A stretch of 64,000 bases of DNA from Sulfurimonas sp. (GTDB lineage Bacteria > Campylobacterota > Campylobacteria > Campylobacterales > Sulfurimonadaceae), in NCBI RefSeq assembly GCF_028694605.1, contig NZ_JAQVKP010000002.1:62001-126000 (forward strand), given 5' to 3'. The position numbers and the translations under genes are program-made. Shown piece by piece: positions 24,311-28,082 of this stretch. The notes below the pieces were generated by a model, which saw nothing but the letters and a program-made list of their open reading frames with translations, was not told where the DNA came from and searched no databases. The stretch's first letter is position 1. Every line of letters begins with the position of its first letter.

Positions 24311-24928
24311 ATGCAAAATACAAAAGCAAGAACAAATATTTATGGACTACTCTCTCGAATACTGCTCCAAGAATTAGATGAGGAGATGCTGCAAACAATT
24401 AAAAATGATGCAATTATATTGGATTTTTTTCCAACGCTCAGAGAGTGGAAGCCATTTTTACAAGTGCAAAACAGAGAGCTTTTAGATGAGTATCTTAACC
24501 CTGATTTTGTAAACCTTTCCCTTTTGCATCTGATTCCTTATGAAACTTTTTATATACGAGAAGATCAAAAAATTGAAACCGGCGGTGCAAATCCGGTAAC
24601 AGATATGTATAGTGCATATAATTTTATTGTTGATTATGAAGCAGCGCGTGCAATTTCTTCTGATCATATCGGTGTAGAACTTGAGTTTATGCATCATCTT
24701 GTAGAGGCTGAGTTAAAAGCCTTGCAAGAAGACGATAAAGATGCATGCAAGGCGTTTCAAGAGATACAAAAAGAGTTTTTAAACAAACATCTTTTACGTT
24801 GGGCACCTATGTATCTTATAAATGTAAAGTACGAGGCAAGAACACCTCTTTATTATGATGCGGCGGAGATGGCGCTAGAATTTTTGTTGAGTGATAATGA
24901 ATACCTTGCAAGTGAGCTTGGCGAATAG
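24311..24928 (+). CDS. TorD/DmsD-family molybdoenzyme chaperone
   Basis: A 205-residue helical cytoplasmic protein of the TorD-like chaperone family. Supporting segments are ARTNIYGLLSRILLQELDEEML at the start, then LIPYETFYIREDQ and HIGVELEFMHHLVEAE, near the conserved E(Y/F)xx...D-H-xxxEL pattern. Such proteins bind the Tat signal of a molybdo- or tungsto-enzyme and aid cofactor insertion. No catalytic subunit lies next to it, so its client (perhaps formate dehydrogenase) is unproven. The next gene begins directly after its stop. Confidence 0.85.
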   Translation: MQNTKARTNIYGLLSRILLQELDEEMLQTIKNDAIILDFFPTLREWKPFLQVQNRELLDEYLNPDFVNLSLLHLIPYETFYIREDQKIETGGANPVTDMYSAYNFIVDYEAARAISSDHIGVELEFMHHLVEAELKALQEDDKDACKAFQEIQKEFLNKHLLRWAPMYLINVKYEARTPLYYDAAEMALEFLLSDNEYLASELGE

Positions 24929-26035
24929 ATGATACAGCTCAAAGCTAGCCGTTGCGTGCGTTCTCTTTCAAAAGAGAGCGAGTGCAACAAGTGTGAGGTT
25001 ATCTGCCCGACTAATGCTATTGTTGTTGGGAACAACCCGCTTCCTGCTATCAATTTTTCTGCATGTGTTGGGTGTGGAGCGTGTGATGCTGTTTGCCCAA
25101 ATGAAGCACTCTTTTTAGATGATTTTAACGCTACGGAGTTCTTCTTTAATTTTATAGAAGATGAAGAAAATATTGTCTCTTGCCGAAAAAATGTACCGTG
25201 TATAGCTGCTCTCAATATTGAGCATATCATAGCTATGGCTCTTTTGAAAAAAGAGGTGATTTTTGATATGGGGCATTGTAGTGGGTGTGCTATTGCCTAT
25301 AAATGCGAGATACAAATCAGAAAAAACTATGAAGAGGCATCTTATATCCTTGAGGCTATGCAGAGTGATGCACGCATAAAGCTTGAAAATATCATGTATG
25401 AAAAAGAAGAGCAAGAAAAAAGCACATCAAGAAGGGAGTTTTTTTCCAAAGCCAACCTAAAGGGCGCTCTGAAAACAAAACATGCATTTGAAAAAGAGAT
25501 TCAAAAGGCAACGGATGAGCTTATAGAACATACGCTGCAAAAAAGTGATATAGCACTTTTGAGACAAAAACGTATTACCGAGCGACGAAAACTTTTTTTT
25601 ACGGCACTAAAAAGGGTAAAAAAACCATCTGTTTATCATGTTGTTGAATCAGATGAGCTTACATTTACTTCTATGAAGATTCTTGATAGCGAGACGTGTA
25701 CGGCGTGTCAGATGTGTTATAGAGTTTGTCCGACAGGAGCGCTTGGTTCGGATATAAAAAACTCCAAGATAGATTTTGACCCGTTTTTGTGCATCAAGTG
25801 CCATATCTGCCATGATGTATGCGAGCCGGACGCTATCAAACTCTCTCCAAGCTATCGCATTAAAGAGTTTTTTGAACCTGAGGTGCAAAATCTTATTACT
25901 TTTAAAGTGCGACGATGCAATGAATGCAATATGATTTTTAGTACAAACTCTAACGACAGACTTTGCTACAGATGTAAAGCGGAAGAGGAAGAGGCGCGAG
26001 AACTTTGGGGAATAAGGACTTATCATGATGAATGA
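24929..26035 (+). CDS. Multi-[4Fe-4S] cytoplasmic ferredoxin-like protein
   Basis: A 368-residue iron-sulfur protein. N-terminal sites are CNKCEVICP (about residues 19-27) and CVGCGACDAVCP (46-57); the C-terminal pair is CTACQMCYRVCP and CIKCHICHDVCEP (about 258-290). A zinc-ribbon-like CNEC...CYRC follows. The middle (about 85-126) has more cysteines and the residues at 165-174 read STSRREFFSK, a Tat-like motif in an internal position. It lacks an N-terminal signal. It sits between the TorD-like and AroE-like genes and may relay electrons during molybdoenzyme maturation or turnover; this is inference. Confidence 0.88.
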   Translation: MIQLKASRCVRSLSKESECNKCEVICPTNAIVVGNNPLPAINFSACVGCGACDAVCPNEALFLDDFNATEFFFNFIEDEENIVSCRKNVPCIAALNIEHIIAMALLKKEVIFDMGHCSGCAIAYKCEIQIRKNYEEASYILEAMQSDARIKLENIMYEKEEQEKSTSRREFFSKANLKGALKTKHAFEKEIQKATDELIEHTLQKSDIALLRQKRITERRKLFFTALKRVKKPSVYHVVESDELTFTSMKILDSETCTACQMCYRVCPTGALGSDIKNSKIDFDPFLCIKCHICHDVCEPDAIKLSPSYRIKEFFEPEVQNLITFKVRRCNECNMIFSTNSNDRLCYRCKAEEEEARELWGIRTYHDE

Positions 26036-26822
26036 TGCAAATGAGATATCGCATCACACGATGCTTTATGGATTTATAGGCGAGAGTGCAGGGCAGAGCA
26101 GTTTCTCTGCTACACTCAACAAGCTCTTTAAGGCAAACAATAAAAATGCGATGATGATTCCTATGAATATACGGGAAGATGATTTTTATTATACGCTTGT
26201 CAATATGAAAAAATCACATGTAAACGGAGCGCTTCTTGCAAGGGAATACACAAAAAGCATTATAGAAATTTTAGATGATGCTTCAGATAGAGTGAAGCTC
26301 TCCGGAGTATGCGATATTGTGGTGCGAGATGGTCAAAAGCTCTTTGGAGATGTTATCTTTGCATCTGTTTTGGCTGATGTTTTAAAAAAAAGAGGGGCAA
26401 AAAAAATAGCGCTTCTCGGAGTTAACGGCTATGCAAAAGCATTTTGTTTGGCGGCAGAGGGATTTGAGATAAGCTACTTTTATGATGATTTGGAAGCTTT
26501 AATGCAGTTTGTTGTGCAGATGCAAAGAGAAAATGCGGATATCAACCGTATTGCTTCTGGAATGCAGGTGAATCTTGCATCTTATGACGCAGTAATTGAT
26601 TTTTCGGATTTTGAGAGTTTGGATATGGTCTGTTCGTTGAGTGCTGTCAATCTTGATATAAATGGCAAAAAAGAGCCTTCGGTGCTTAGAACAAGGGCAG
26701 GTGAACTTGGTGTTTCTTACAAAGGTTTTGATGATGTACTAGAAGAGACGGCGCAAGAGGTTTTTGAGTTTTTAAAAATGCAAAAGCACCTTGAGCATGA
26801 TAAAAGCGATATGAAATTTTAA
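26025..26822 (+). CDS. Shikimate-dehydrogenase-like protein lacking catalytic residues
   Basis: A 265-residue protein whose first half follows the AroE pattern: YGFIGESAGQSSFSATLNKLF for YGLIGxPVxHSxSPxxHN, GALLAREYTKSIIEILDD for GANVTIPxKExV, then KLFGDV for the substrate loop and KKIALLGVNGYAKAF for the nucleotide-binding GxGGxxxA segment. The catalytic Lys position appears to be Thr (Lys is next to it), and the Asp of GDNTDG is replaced (GDVIFA). It is probably not a shikimate dehydrogenase. It overlaps the iron-sulfur gene by 11 nt, so a role in the same pathway is likely. Confidence 0.8.
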   Translation: MMNDANEISHHTMLYGFIGESAGQSSFSATLNKLFKANNKNAMMIPMNIREDDFYYTLVNMKKSHVNGALLAREYTKSIIEILDDASDRVKLSGVCDIVVRDGQKLFGDVIFASVLADVLKKRGAKKIALLGVNGYAKAFCLAAEGFEISYFYDDLEALMQFVVQMQRENADINRIASGMQVNLASYDAVIDFSDFESLDMVCSLSAVNLDINGKKEPSVLRTRAGELGVSYKGFDDVLEETAQEVFEFLKMQKHLEHDKSDMKF

Positions 26823-26838
26823 AGTTTAGGAGAATAGA

Positions 26839-27342
26839 ATGAATAGAGAAGATTTTAGAGATTTAAGATCGGAGTTTGAAGCGCTTGTCAAAGAGAACTG
26901 CTCCCTAGACCCGCAAGAGACGCAAAGAGACAGAGATGCCGGTGATAAAGAAGATGAAGAGCCTGTACCGCAGTTTGTAGATGCATTGAGCGCAAAACTG
27001 CTCGCTCCTGCTATAAGTGGTATTTATCTCTCAAGACTGGATATCAAGAGAATTGCAGAGGCAATTGATGAGTCTTTGCCAATCAAAGAGCGTGTTAAGA
27101 TGATTAGAGCACTTTTTAGACACACAAACTCTAAAGAGTACTTAAGAAAAGCATTTGATGAGATAAATAGACATATCAACGGTCGTATCTTGATATATCA
27201 AGAACTAAGCGAGTCTTTTCCACACTCGAAGCCTATTTTTGATGATTATACCCTCAAAGCAAAAAAGACTATGAAGATGTTTGAACAGATTATAGATGAT
27301 TTTGAAGAGATAGAGCCGTCTGAAGACCCGCTGTTTATTTAG
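26839..27342 (+). CDS. Uncharacterised acidic helical protein (167 aa)
   Basis: I cannot name a family. The 167-residue protein is acidic and helical, with a charged low-complexity stretch (about residues 29-42) followed by a more conserved-looking helical region (KLLAPAISGIYLSRLDIKRIAEAID). It has no cysteines in cluster motifs and no signal peptide. AGGAGAATAGA precedes the ATG. It follows the AroE-like gene by 16 nt and probably closes the TorD/Fe-S operon. Confidence 0.75.
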   Translation: MNREDFRDLRSEFEALVKENCSLDPQETQRDRDAGDKEDEEPVPQFVDALSAKLLAPAISGIYLSRLDIKRIAEAIDESLPIKERVKMIRALFRHTNSKEYLRKAFDEINRHINGRILIYQELSESFPHSKPIFDDYTLKAKKTMKMFEQIIDDFEEIEPSEDPLFI

Positions 27343-27357
27343 CAGCGGAAATCTGGT

Positions 27358-27363
27358 TATAAT
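27358..27363 (+). promoter_or_regulatory. Promoter for the small hydrophobic peptide mRNA
   Basis: TATAAT preceded by CTGGT is a consensus -10 just after the stop of the preceding gene, predicting a start near 27370 and an 80-nt leader before the peptide ATG at 27452. No clear -35 is seen, as is usual in this phylum. Confidence 0.5.
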
Positions 27364-27451
27364 TGCCTTGCTAGTTGGCGGTTATGATTGGTTTGATTGT
27401 GTTGTGAAGGAGAAGGTGGGACAGGGTCAGCCTTTTTTTAAGGATATAACA

Positions 27452-27511
27452 ATGCGACTCGCAATCATAATTGTTATAATCATTCTGCTTTTAGCAGAAA
27501 GATTGTATTAA
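27452..27511 (+). CDS. Candidate type I toxin: 19-residue hydrophobic Ibs-like peptide
   Basis: A very short frame encodes MRLAIIIVIIILLLAERLY: a hydrophobic core of about 12 residues with Arg at each end. It resembles enterobacterial Ibs type I toxins, also 18-19 residues with an M(M)RLVII-type start. AAGGAT lies 6 nt before the ATG. TATAACAAT (27445-27453) can pair with ATTGTTATA (27470-27478), burying the start codon. Leader bases 27382-27390 can pair with 27462-27470. A GTG at 27416 in the same frame would give 31 residues, with a close AAGGAG. Too short for gene callers; toxicity is not shown. Confidence 0.5.
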   Translation: MRLAIIIVIIILLLAERLY

Positions 27512-27546
27512 AAAGCTTATAGAGAGTTCTCAGCTCTCTATTTGTC
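27512..27546. terminator. Hairpin after the small peptide, probably bidirectional terminator
   Basis: TAGAGAG (27520-27526) and CTCTCTA (27534-27540) pair around a 7-nt loop. On the plus strand it follows the peptide stop but has only a short T-rich tail. On the minus strand it is followed by AAGCTTTTT and could end pgpA transcripts or a short antisense RNA. Confidence 0.5.
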
Positions 27547-27559
27547 CCAACTAGGCAAA

Positions 27560-27565
27560 ATTATA
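27560..27565 (-). promoter_or_regulatory. Antisense promoter facing the small peptide gene
   Basis: Read on the minus strand, TGTTATAAT is an exact extended -10 (TGnTATAAT), placed 11 nt downstream of the pgpA stop. It would start an RNA near 27552 running antisense across the peptide mRNA, as expected for a type I antitoxin. It has no other gene to serve. A hairpin at 27520-27540 might stop the RNA early, so its length is uncertain. Confidence 0.5.
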
Positions 27566-27575
27566 ACACAGAAAT

Positions 27576-28082
27576 TTAAATAAAGCTAGAGAGTTGCAAC
27601 CATCCGTGCCAAAGCAGAGCACTTACTATTCCTGCGGCAAAACCGGCAACTATATCATCCGCCATCACCCCGACACCGCCTTTTGCCTCACGGTCAAGCC
27701 TTCCGATGATAGAGGGTTTTTTGATGTCAAAATAGCGAAAGAGTGCGAAAGAGAGCAAGCTCTGGATCAAAAAACCATTTTGCAAGTCAGATATTTCACC
27801 CATATTTATACTCATCGCAGGTGCAACGCTCAGGGCAAACCACATTCCTGCAAGTTCGTCTATCACAATGCGTTTGTCATCATGTGTGCCGCTTTGCGCC
27901 TCATATTTGTTAATCTCGCGGATGCCTATAACAGAAAAAAGCACTGCTGCTAAAAAAAGCGTTTGTACATCAAAAAAGAGAAGCACCGCTATGCCGAGTA
28001 TGAGTGCAACCAAAGAACCAACCGTTCCGGGAGCTTTTGGTGAGAGACCGCTGTAACCGAGTGTTATAAAAAACCAGTTCAT
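27576..28082 (-). CDS. pgpA: PgpA, phosphatidylglycerophosphatase A
   Basis: A 168-residue membrane enzyme that dephosphorylates phosphatidylglycerol phosphate. The family motif GLSPKAPGTVGSLVA lies at residues 12-26, and the catalytic-region acids are in KRIVIDELAGMW and DREAKGGVGVMADDIVAG. About three or four membrane helices are predicted. It is last in the ispDF-hp1021-sat-pgpA run, 8 nt after sat; the same gene order occurs in Campylobacter jejuni. Confidence 0.93.
   Translation of the reverse strand: MNWFFITLGYSGLSPKAPGTVGSLVALILGIAVLLFFDVQTLFLAAVLFSVIGIREINKYEAQSGTHDDKRIVIDELAGMWFALSVAPAMSINMGEISDLQNGFLIQSLLSFALFRYFDIKKPSIIGRLDREAKGGVGVMADDIVAGFAAGIVSALLWHGWLQLSSFI

Follow-up and report, generated by a model that had tools for sequence, protein, structure and literature searches.

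Locus and sequence features

The locus described here lies in a Sulfurimonas sp. genome (NCBI RefSeq assembly GCF_028694605.1, contig NZ_JAQVKP010000002.1, positions 62,001 to 126,000), of which a stretch of 64,000 nucleotides, hereafter the window, was analysed; all coordinates refer to it. The element in question is a predicted type I toxin-antitoxin module in a 233-bp gap between genes, in which a 19-codon candidate toxin gene would be opposed by a short antisense RNA. An earlier note, made from the sequence alone, had placed this gap between two operons; the gap itself stands, and its setting is corrected to that of two convergent genes, an open reading frame (ORF) of 167 aa on the plus strand (26839-27342) and pgpA on the minus strand (27576-28082). 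The 167-aa ORF is present in 114 of 135 Sulfurimonas genomes and has no Pfam match. Direct reading confirmed all the sequence items noted earlier, namely the ORF, the ribosome site, both pairings, both -10 boxes and the hairpin, and the parts of the locus are as follows.

27343-27575: gap between genes, 233 bp, holding the whole predicted module (27358-27575)
27358-27363, plus: predicted sense (toxin mRNA) -10 box TATAAT, read from sequence
27371-27378, plus: 5' end element CTAGTTGG, pairing with 27547-27554 (long-range helix, LRI)
27379-27385, plus: leader element CGRUUAU, pairing with codons 6-8 (27467-27473)
27382-27390, plus: leader segment TTATGATTG, pairing perfectly with CAATCATAA (27462-27470)
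27401-27405, plus: leader element (A/G)UUGU, pairing with ACAAU of the start codon (27449-27453)
27413-27433, plus: invariant leader motif AAGGTGGGACAGGGTCAGCCT
27440-27443, plus: Shine-Dalgarno AAGG, read from sequence
27445-27453, plus: TATAACAAT, forming the 9-bp start-codon hairpin with ATTGTTATA (27470-27478)
27452-27511, plus: candidate toxin ORF MRLAIIIVIIILLLAERLY, ATG at 27452, TAA stop, 19 codons, read from sequence
27508-27553, minus: predicted antisense RNA of about 45 nt, starting near 27553 and ending in a U-tract opposite 27510-27514
27519-27541: hairpin of 9 pairs, probable antisense terminator
27543-27554, plus: 3' element TGTCCCAACTAG; its complements are the antisense 5' end, the mRNA 5' end and the leader motif (27414-27424)
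27568-27560, minus: antisense promoter with an exact extended -10, TGTTATAAT, read from sequence

A repeated family in Sulfurimonas and Sulfurovaceae

The locus is one member of a repeated family and not a chance arrangement, and 67 intact copies were analysed. BLAST of the locus found three congeners with 74-79% identity in different gene contexts, with the peptide intact and carrying synonymous changes in two of the three. The 21-base leader motif AAGGTGGGACAGGGTYAGCCT occurs in 28 of 135 Sulfurimonas genomes, with up to 5 matches per genome, while a reversed-motif control gave zero matches in the same 135. A scan of the genome collection with this motif returned 65 contigs, 64 of them from Campylobacterota and one a chance match (Phenylobacterium contig L064, which holds no copy); the carriers comprise Sulfurimonas, Sulfurovum, related metagenome-assembled genomes, the isolate S. 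indica NW8N and two single-cell genomes.

A covariance model (R1), built from the ATG to the antisense -10 with the leader left out to avoid circularity, recovers the same set as the leader motif, and the motif is in turn found in nearly all copies that this leader-free model detects. R1 matched 29 of 135 Sulfurimonas genomes, a count that includes a weak match rejected as a copy (L157, in genome G081) and a remnant (G118), leaving about 27 carriers; further weak matches fell in G152:C8 and G511. Across the order, 8 of 399 genomes were matched, all within two families, and no copies were found in this search outside Sulfurimonas and Sulfurovaceae. Up to 9 of 175 Sulfurovaceae genomes were matched, as many as 12 times in a single genome, a few of these Sulfurovaceae matches being weak or halves of a split copy. 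Copy numbers reach about 10-12 per genome, and searches of plasmid, phage and viral collections found no copies.

At the convergent gene pair of the window, the element is present in the window's own genome and in G079, G149 and G142, and absent from many relatives; in several of these the two genes are just 16-60 bp apart. The neighbours of other copies are unrelated in orientation and distance by a rough ORF-based count, and copies also occur in tandem, with three in 1.6 kb of G156 C22 and three in 0.7 kb of L073. The family is patchy, multi-copy and apparently mobile.

Several observations concern the surroundings of these copies. In relatives without the toxin element (L187-L196, L207, L210) the gap before pgpA holds a different dispersed repeat, AAAATAGC..GCATTT..TGCGTTGTTGC..CTTCCTCA..CTGCATCACTCTTTTAATT. 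Three copies (L030 at about 1440-1490, L033 at about 1590-1625 and L042 at about 1588-1620) have taken up a palindromic repeat about 31 bp long, approximately AGAAATTYTGNTTANGAATTTCACGTNATAA. One of these insertions lies in the leader; the other two sit immediately ahead of the stop codon and lengthen the peptide. Upstream in the window, positions 24311-27342 form an operon for a NarJ/TorD-like chaperone, a multi-cluster Fe-S protein, a protein weakly like the N domain of shikimate dehydrogenase and the 167-aa ORF.

The peptide is constrained in one reading frame

The 67 intact copies encode 63 distinct hydrophobic peptides of 18-20 residues, every one of which ends in (R/K)(L/V/A/I)(Y/F). The search of relatives for a conserved peptide that the earlier note had proposed was run, and across the copies it reveals constraint specific to this frame: the ratio of nonsynonymous to synonymous polymorphism (pN/pS) is 0.58 in frame, against 1.00 and 1.41 in the other two. 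In codons 5-14 the second base is T in 96-100% of cases, with first and third bases mostly varying. Length changes within the ORF come as whole codons (18, 19 or 20), whereas the spacer before the ATG varies freely. Of 61 copies, 60 start with ATG and one with GTG, and the copies carry an AAGGA/AAAGG-type ribosome site at a spacing similar to that of the window. The peptide is therefore under protein-level selection, in this frame only. TAA is the stop in all 50 nineteen-codon copies, compared with 22 TAA, 11 TAG and 7 TGA among the long ORFs of the window, which may be because the TAA overlaps the U-tract of the predicted antisense RNA. Searches of Pfam and NCBIfam with 20-aa natural variants returned nothing of weight. 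A GTG at 27404 might have opened a reading frame in the leader, in phase with that of the toxin, but this was rejected, since the spacing from leader to ATG falls in all three phases among copies.

The predicted mRNA closes on itself

On the sense side, the exact TATAAT is found at the equivalent place in 27 of 66 copies and five of its six letters in 25 more, against 3% exact matches in shuffles; the spacing from this -10 would put the toxin mRNA start near 27370. The sense RNA (27365-27575) folds at -69.8 kcal/mol (z -5.4), as good a fold being reached by 0 of 200 shuffles, and the minus-strand RNA folds 3.7 standard deviations better than its shuffles.

Covariation was scored in an alignment of 61 distinct copies (A5). 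The LRI, which joins the 5' end to the 3' element, is paired in 98.3% of cells, compared with at most 52% in slid controls, and double changes fill 37 cells where shuffles give 14.3 +/- 2.7. It is part of the minimum free energy (MFE) fold in 60 of 61 copies, and the mean MFE z over all 61 is -5.2. The leader element at 27379-27385 pairs with codons 6-8 in 96.4% of cells. Single-side changes are G-U rather than A-C in both helices (15 versus 2 in the LRI and 106 versus 0 in the leader/codon helix), and since one-sided changes thus produce G-U and almost never A-C, selection acts on pairing in the plus-strand, sense RNA. That a distant leader segment pairs with the codons after the start had been proposed earlier; the pairing is perfect in the window and covaries across copies, and in its extended form (to 27390/27462) it is paired in 80.8% of cells over 17 pairs, with 50 double changes against 29.6 in shuffles.

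A third helix, between 27401-27405 and the start codon (27449-27453), is paired in 95% of cells and is mostly invariant, so that covariation says little about it. The window's own fold pairs the start codon instead with 27396-27400, an arrangement that we rejected as poorly conserved in favour of the neighbouring, conserved segment. Taken together, these three helices (LRI, 27379-27385/27467-27473 and 27401-27405/27449-27453) make a refined closed form that is 96.8% paired, with 45 double changes against 17.9. An mRNA fold that hides the start codon is thus a sense-strand structure supported by compensatory changes.

The earlier suggestion that the ATG is buried in a 9-bp stem fares less evenly. 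The start-codon hairpin is present and conserved (92.7% of cells paired, near-invariant), but it shows no covariation, enters the MFE fold in just 2 of the 61 copies and is mutually exclusive with the closed form. At most it may be a transient structure, by analogy with the metastable hairpins of aapA3 (PMC6733600).

The leader motif AAGGTGGGACAGGGTCAGCCT is constant beyond what any pairing explains and contains the Shine-Dalgarno-like AAGGTGG. It may bind a ribosome in standby, a protein or the 3' element. A helix between motif and 3' element, drawn by RNAalifold, is 98.7% paired and never in the MFE; it is invariant, and covariation therefore neither supports nor refutes it.

A near-invariant promoter faces the predicted mRNA

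Sequence and conservation place an opposite-strand promoter that faces and overlaps the predicted toxin mRNA. Its -10 is TATAAT in 64 of 66 copies and TACAAT in the other 2, with the G of the extended motif in all 66 and the full TG in 48. The facing -10 boxes of the initial description thus hold on the minus strand as a near-invariant feature and on the plus strand as one that is exact in fewer than half of the copies.

The hairpin at 27519-27541 had been regarded as the weak point of the locus, one that might end the antisense RNA early. Instead, it is the best-covarying element present, with 90.1% of cells paired, double changes in 7 of 9 pairs and 67 double-change cells against 20.1 in shuffles, and it is the probable terminator of a short antisense RNA. 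On the minus strand it is followed by a conserved GCUUUUA (TAAAAGC on the plus strand), and 27541-27519 has a terminator-like score on that strand. Given the promoter, the terminator-like hairpin and the conserved TAAAAGC, the simplest reading is a short antisense RNA, probably of some 45 nt, that lies opposite the stop codon and 3' untranslated region (UTR). The 5' ends of antisense and mRNA have the same sequence, and both are complementary to the 3' element.

Degenerate copies bear on the link between the two strands. The antisense -10 is always present in intact copies. In the G118 remnant (L158), whose flanks hold an intact copy in G068, the ORF is deleted and the antisense -10 has drifted from TATAAT to TGTAAT; L123 has lost both stop codon and antisense -10, and L101, L038 and L058 have neither ORF nor antisense promoter. 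The L066 copy is interrupted at its stop codon by an insertion, and its antisense half is retained. This joint loss of ORF and antisense -10 suggests a toxin-antitoxin pairing, but it is not proof because a single deletion can take out both parts.

A candidate type I toxin-antitoxin family

We consider it likely, at a probability of roughly 80%, that the locus belongs to a new family of chromosomal type I toxin-antitoxin modules, so far seen only in Sulfurimonas and Sulfurovaceae. The layout proposed in the initial description holds across 61-67 copies, with an in-frame hydrophobic peptide, a covarying fold and a near-invariant opposing promoter. In the working model that we infer for transcription of both RNAs, their ends, the antisense action, the toxicity and the membrane target, a weakly conserved sense promoter would yield a transcript of about 185-200 nt encoding the presumed toxin, a membrane peptide of 19 residues with a single helix. 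The full-length mRNA would close on itself through the covarying pairings of 5' with 3' end and leader with codons 6-8, and of AUUGU with the start codon, and would in this state be translationally inert. The strong extended -10 just past the mRNA 3' end would drive the antisense RNA, which would stop at the conserved hairpin after about 45 nt and pair with the mRNA 3' UTR, either as a mark for decay or in competition for the 3' element, or both. Loss of the antisense, or trimming of the mRNA 3' end, would then free the start codon, and the peptide would depolarise the inner membrane, by analogy with aapA/IsoA and IbsC.

More tentatively, the antisense RNA may mimic the mRNA 5' end, as both start with a covarying CUAGUUGG-type sequence and would compete for a single 3' element; control would then act far from the ribosome site, through strand displacement at the 3' end. 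We regard this as possible, and less likely to be right than wrong by a good distance.

Several points weigh against the toxin-antitoxin reading. The probable antisense terminator is rich in A and T and a few nt separate it from its U-tract, making read-through into the ORF possible, and no U-tract follows the hairpin at 27519-27541 on the plus strand to account for the end of the mRNA. The covariation counts take in related paralogues, so that comparison with shuffles overstates their significance. Finally, an antisense RNA at the 3' element could instead open the mRNA 5' end, and the direction of control is not obvious.

The alternative that survives best, though we think it improbable, is a regulated small membrane protein with a non-toxin role, such as a tuning partner of a membrane complex, kept scarce by its antisense RNA. 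Purifying selection on the peptide and the predicted tight regulation would suit such a protein, but a multi-copy, patchy element at unrelated intergenic sites and absent from most relatives is unlike a housekeeping partner, and the size and composition of the peptide match those of type I toxins. Still less probable is a dispersed structured RNA or palindromic repeat with an incidental ORF, which would account for the strong RNA structure, the repeat-like distribution and the very constant leader motif; an incidental ORF would not be expected to show the frame constraint, the whole-codon length changes and the kept start codon seen here, with pN/pS at 1.0-1.4 out of frame.

Relation to known type I systems

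Several dispersed copies of ibs/sib are found in Escherichia coli, as with the Sulfurimonas family, and the peptide had been called Ibs-like at first. In size and hydrophobicity the likeness stands, since IbsC (MMRLVIILIVLLLISFSAY) shares the 19-residue length, the MRL start and the hydrophobic core; kinship finds no support. The Pfam family Ibs (PF13956, cut-off 27 bits) gave sub-threshold best scores of 12-13.5 bits in sister genomes and no match at E<=10 in the window's own genome, and IbsC scores 3 bits against the profile of the peptides described here, which 276 of 2000 IbsC shuffles equal. The best match of R1 on an E. coli stretch does fall on ibsC (21 bits), but at E 0.099 it is not significant and too weak for a claim of kinship. 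Rfam, at gathering and relaxed thresholds, returned just a tRNA and one chance match. IbsC ends in FSAY, whereas the peptides of this family always end basic-x-aromatic, and SibC (141 nt) covers the whole ibsC ORF, whereas the conserved hairpin here predicts an antisense RNA that ends before the ORF, although read-through is possible. We therefore see very little chance that the family is a true member of Ibs/Sib, whether Campylobacterota acquired it or retained it.

In its regulatory logic the family most resembles aapA/IsoA of Helicobacter pylori, which belongs to the same phylum and is likewise a chromosomal system of several copies encoding a small membrane peptide (PMC6733600, PMC8322730). 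The full-length aapA3 mRNA is held inert by a 5'-3' long-distance fold, with transient hairpins at the start site (PMC6733600); the long-range fold is found here too, and the start region may be similarly buried. The systems differ in the peptide, in antisense length and in antisense position: AapA has 30 aa, against 18-20 in all intact copies here, and the 80-nt IsoA3 has its promoter inside the ORF and forms a duplex that masks the Shine-Dalgarno sequence (PMC6733600), whereas the near-invariant antisense promoter of the Sulfurimonas family lies beyond the 3' UTR. With these differences, and with all copies from the order-wide search lying within Sulfurimonas and Sulfurovaceae, a divergent aapA/IsoA system is the least credible of the alternatives despite the shared logic.

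Among type I pairs that overlap at the 3' end, yonT/SR6 of Bacillus resembles the family in that its antisense RNA overlaps the toxin mRNA there (PMC5848175); it has a 58-aa toxin and a 100-nt antisense RNA, and we claim a likeness in layout and no sequence relation. The best reading is thus of a new type I family, neither Ibs nor AapA by the tests made. The literature searched held no description of the Sulfurimonas family and no type I toxin-antitoxin family for free-living Campylobacterota; the main type I catalogues lay outside its coverage, so an earlier listing is possible.

As a toxin-antitoxin family, this would be a second, independent case in Campylobacterota in which end-to-end folding silences a toxin mRNA, and its 67 copies in two bacterial families provide a comparative data set able to fix the mRNA fold ahead of experiment. 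The minimal peptide of 18-20 residues, with its fixed basic-x-aromatic end, offers a point of comparison for Ibs and AapA. If the antisense RNA does mimic the mRNA 5' end and act by strand displacement, it would represent a new control principle for type I systems.
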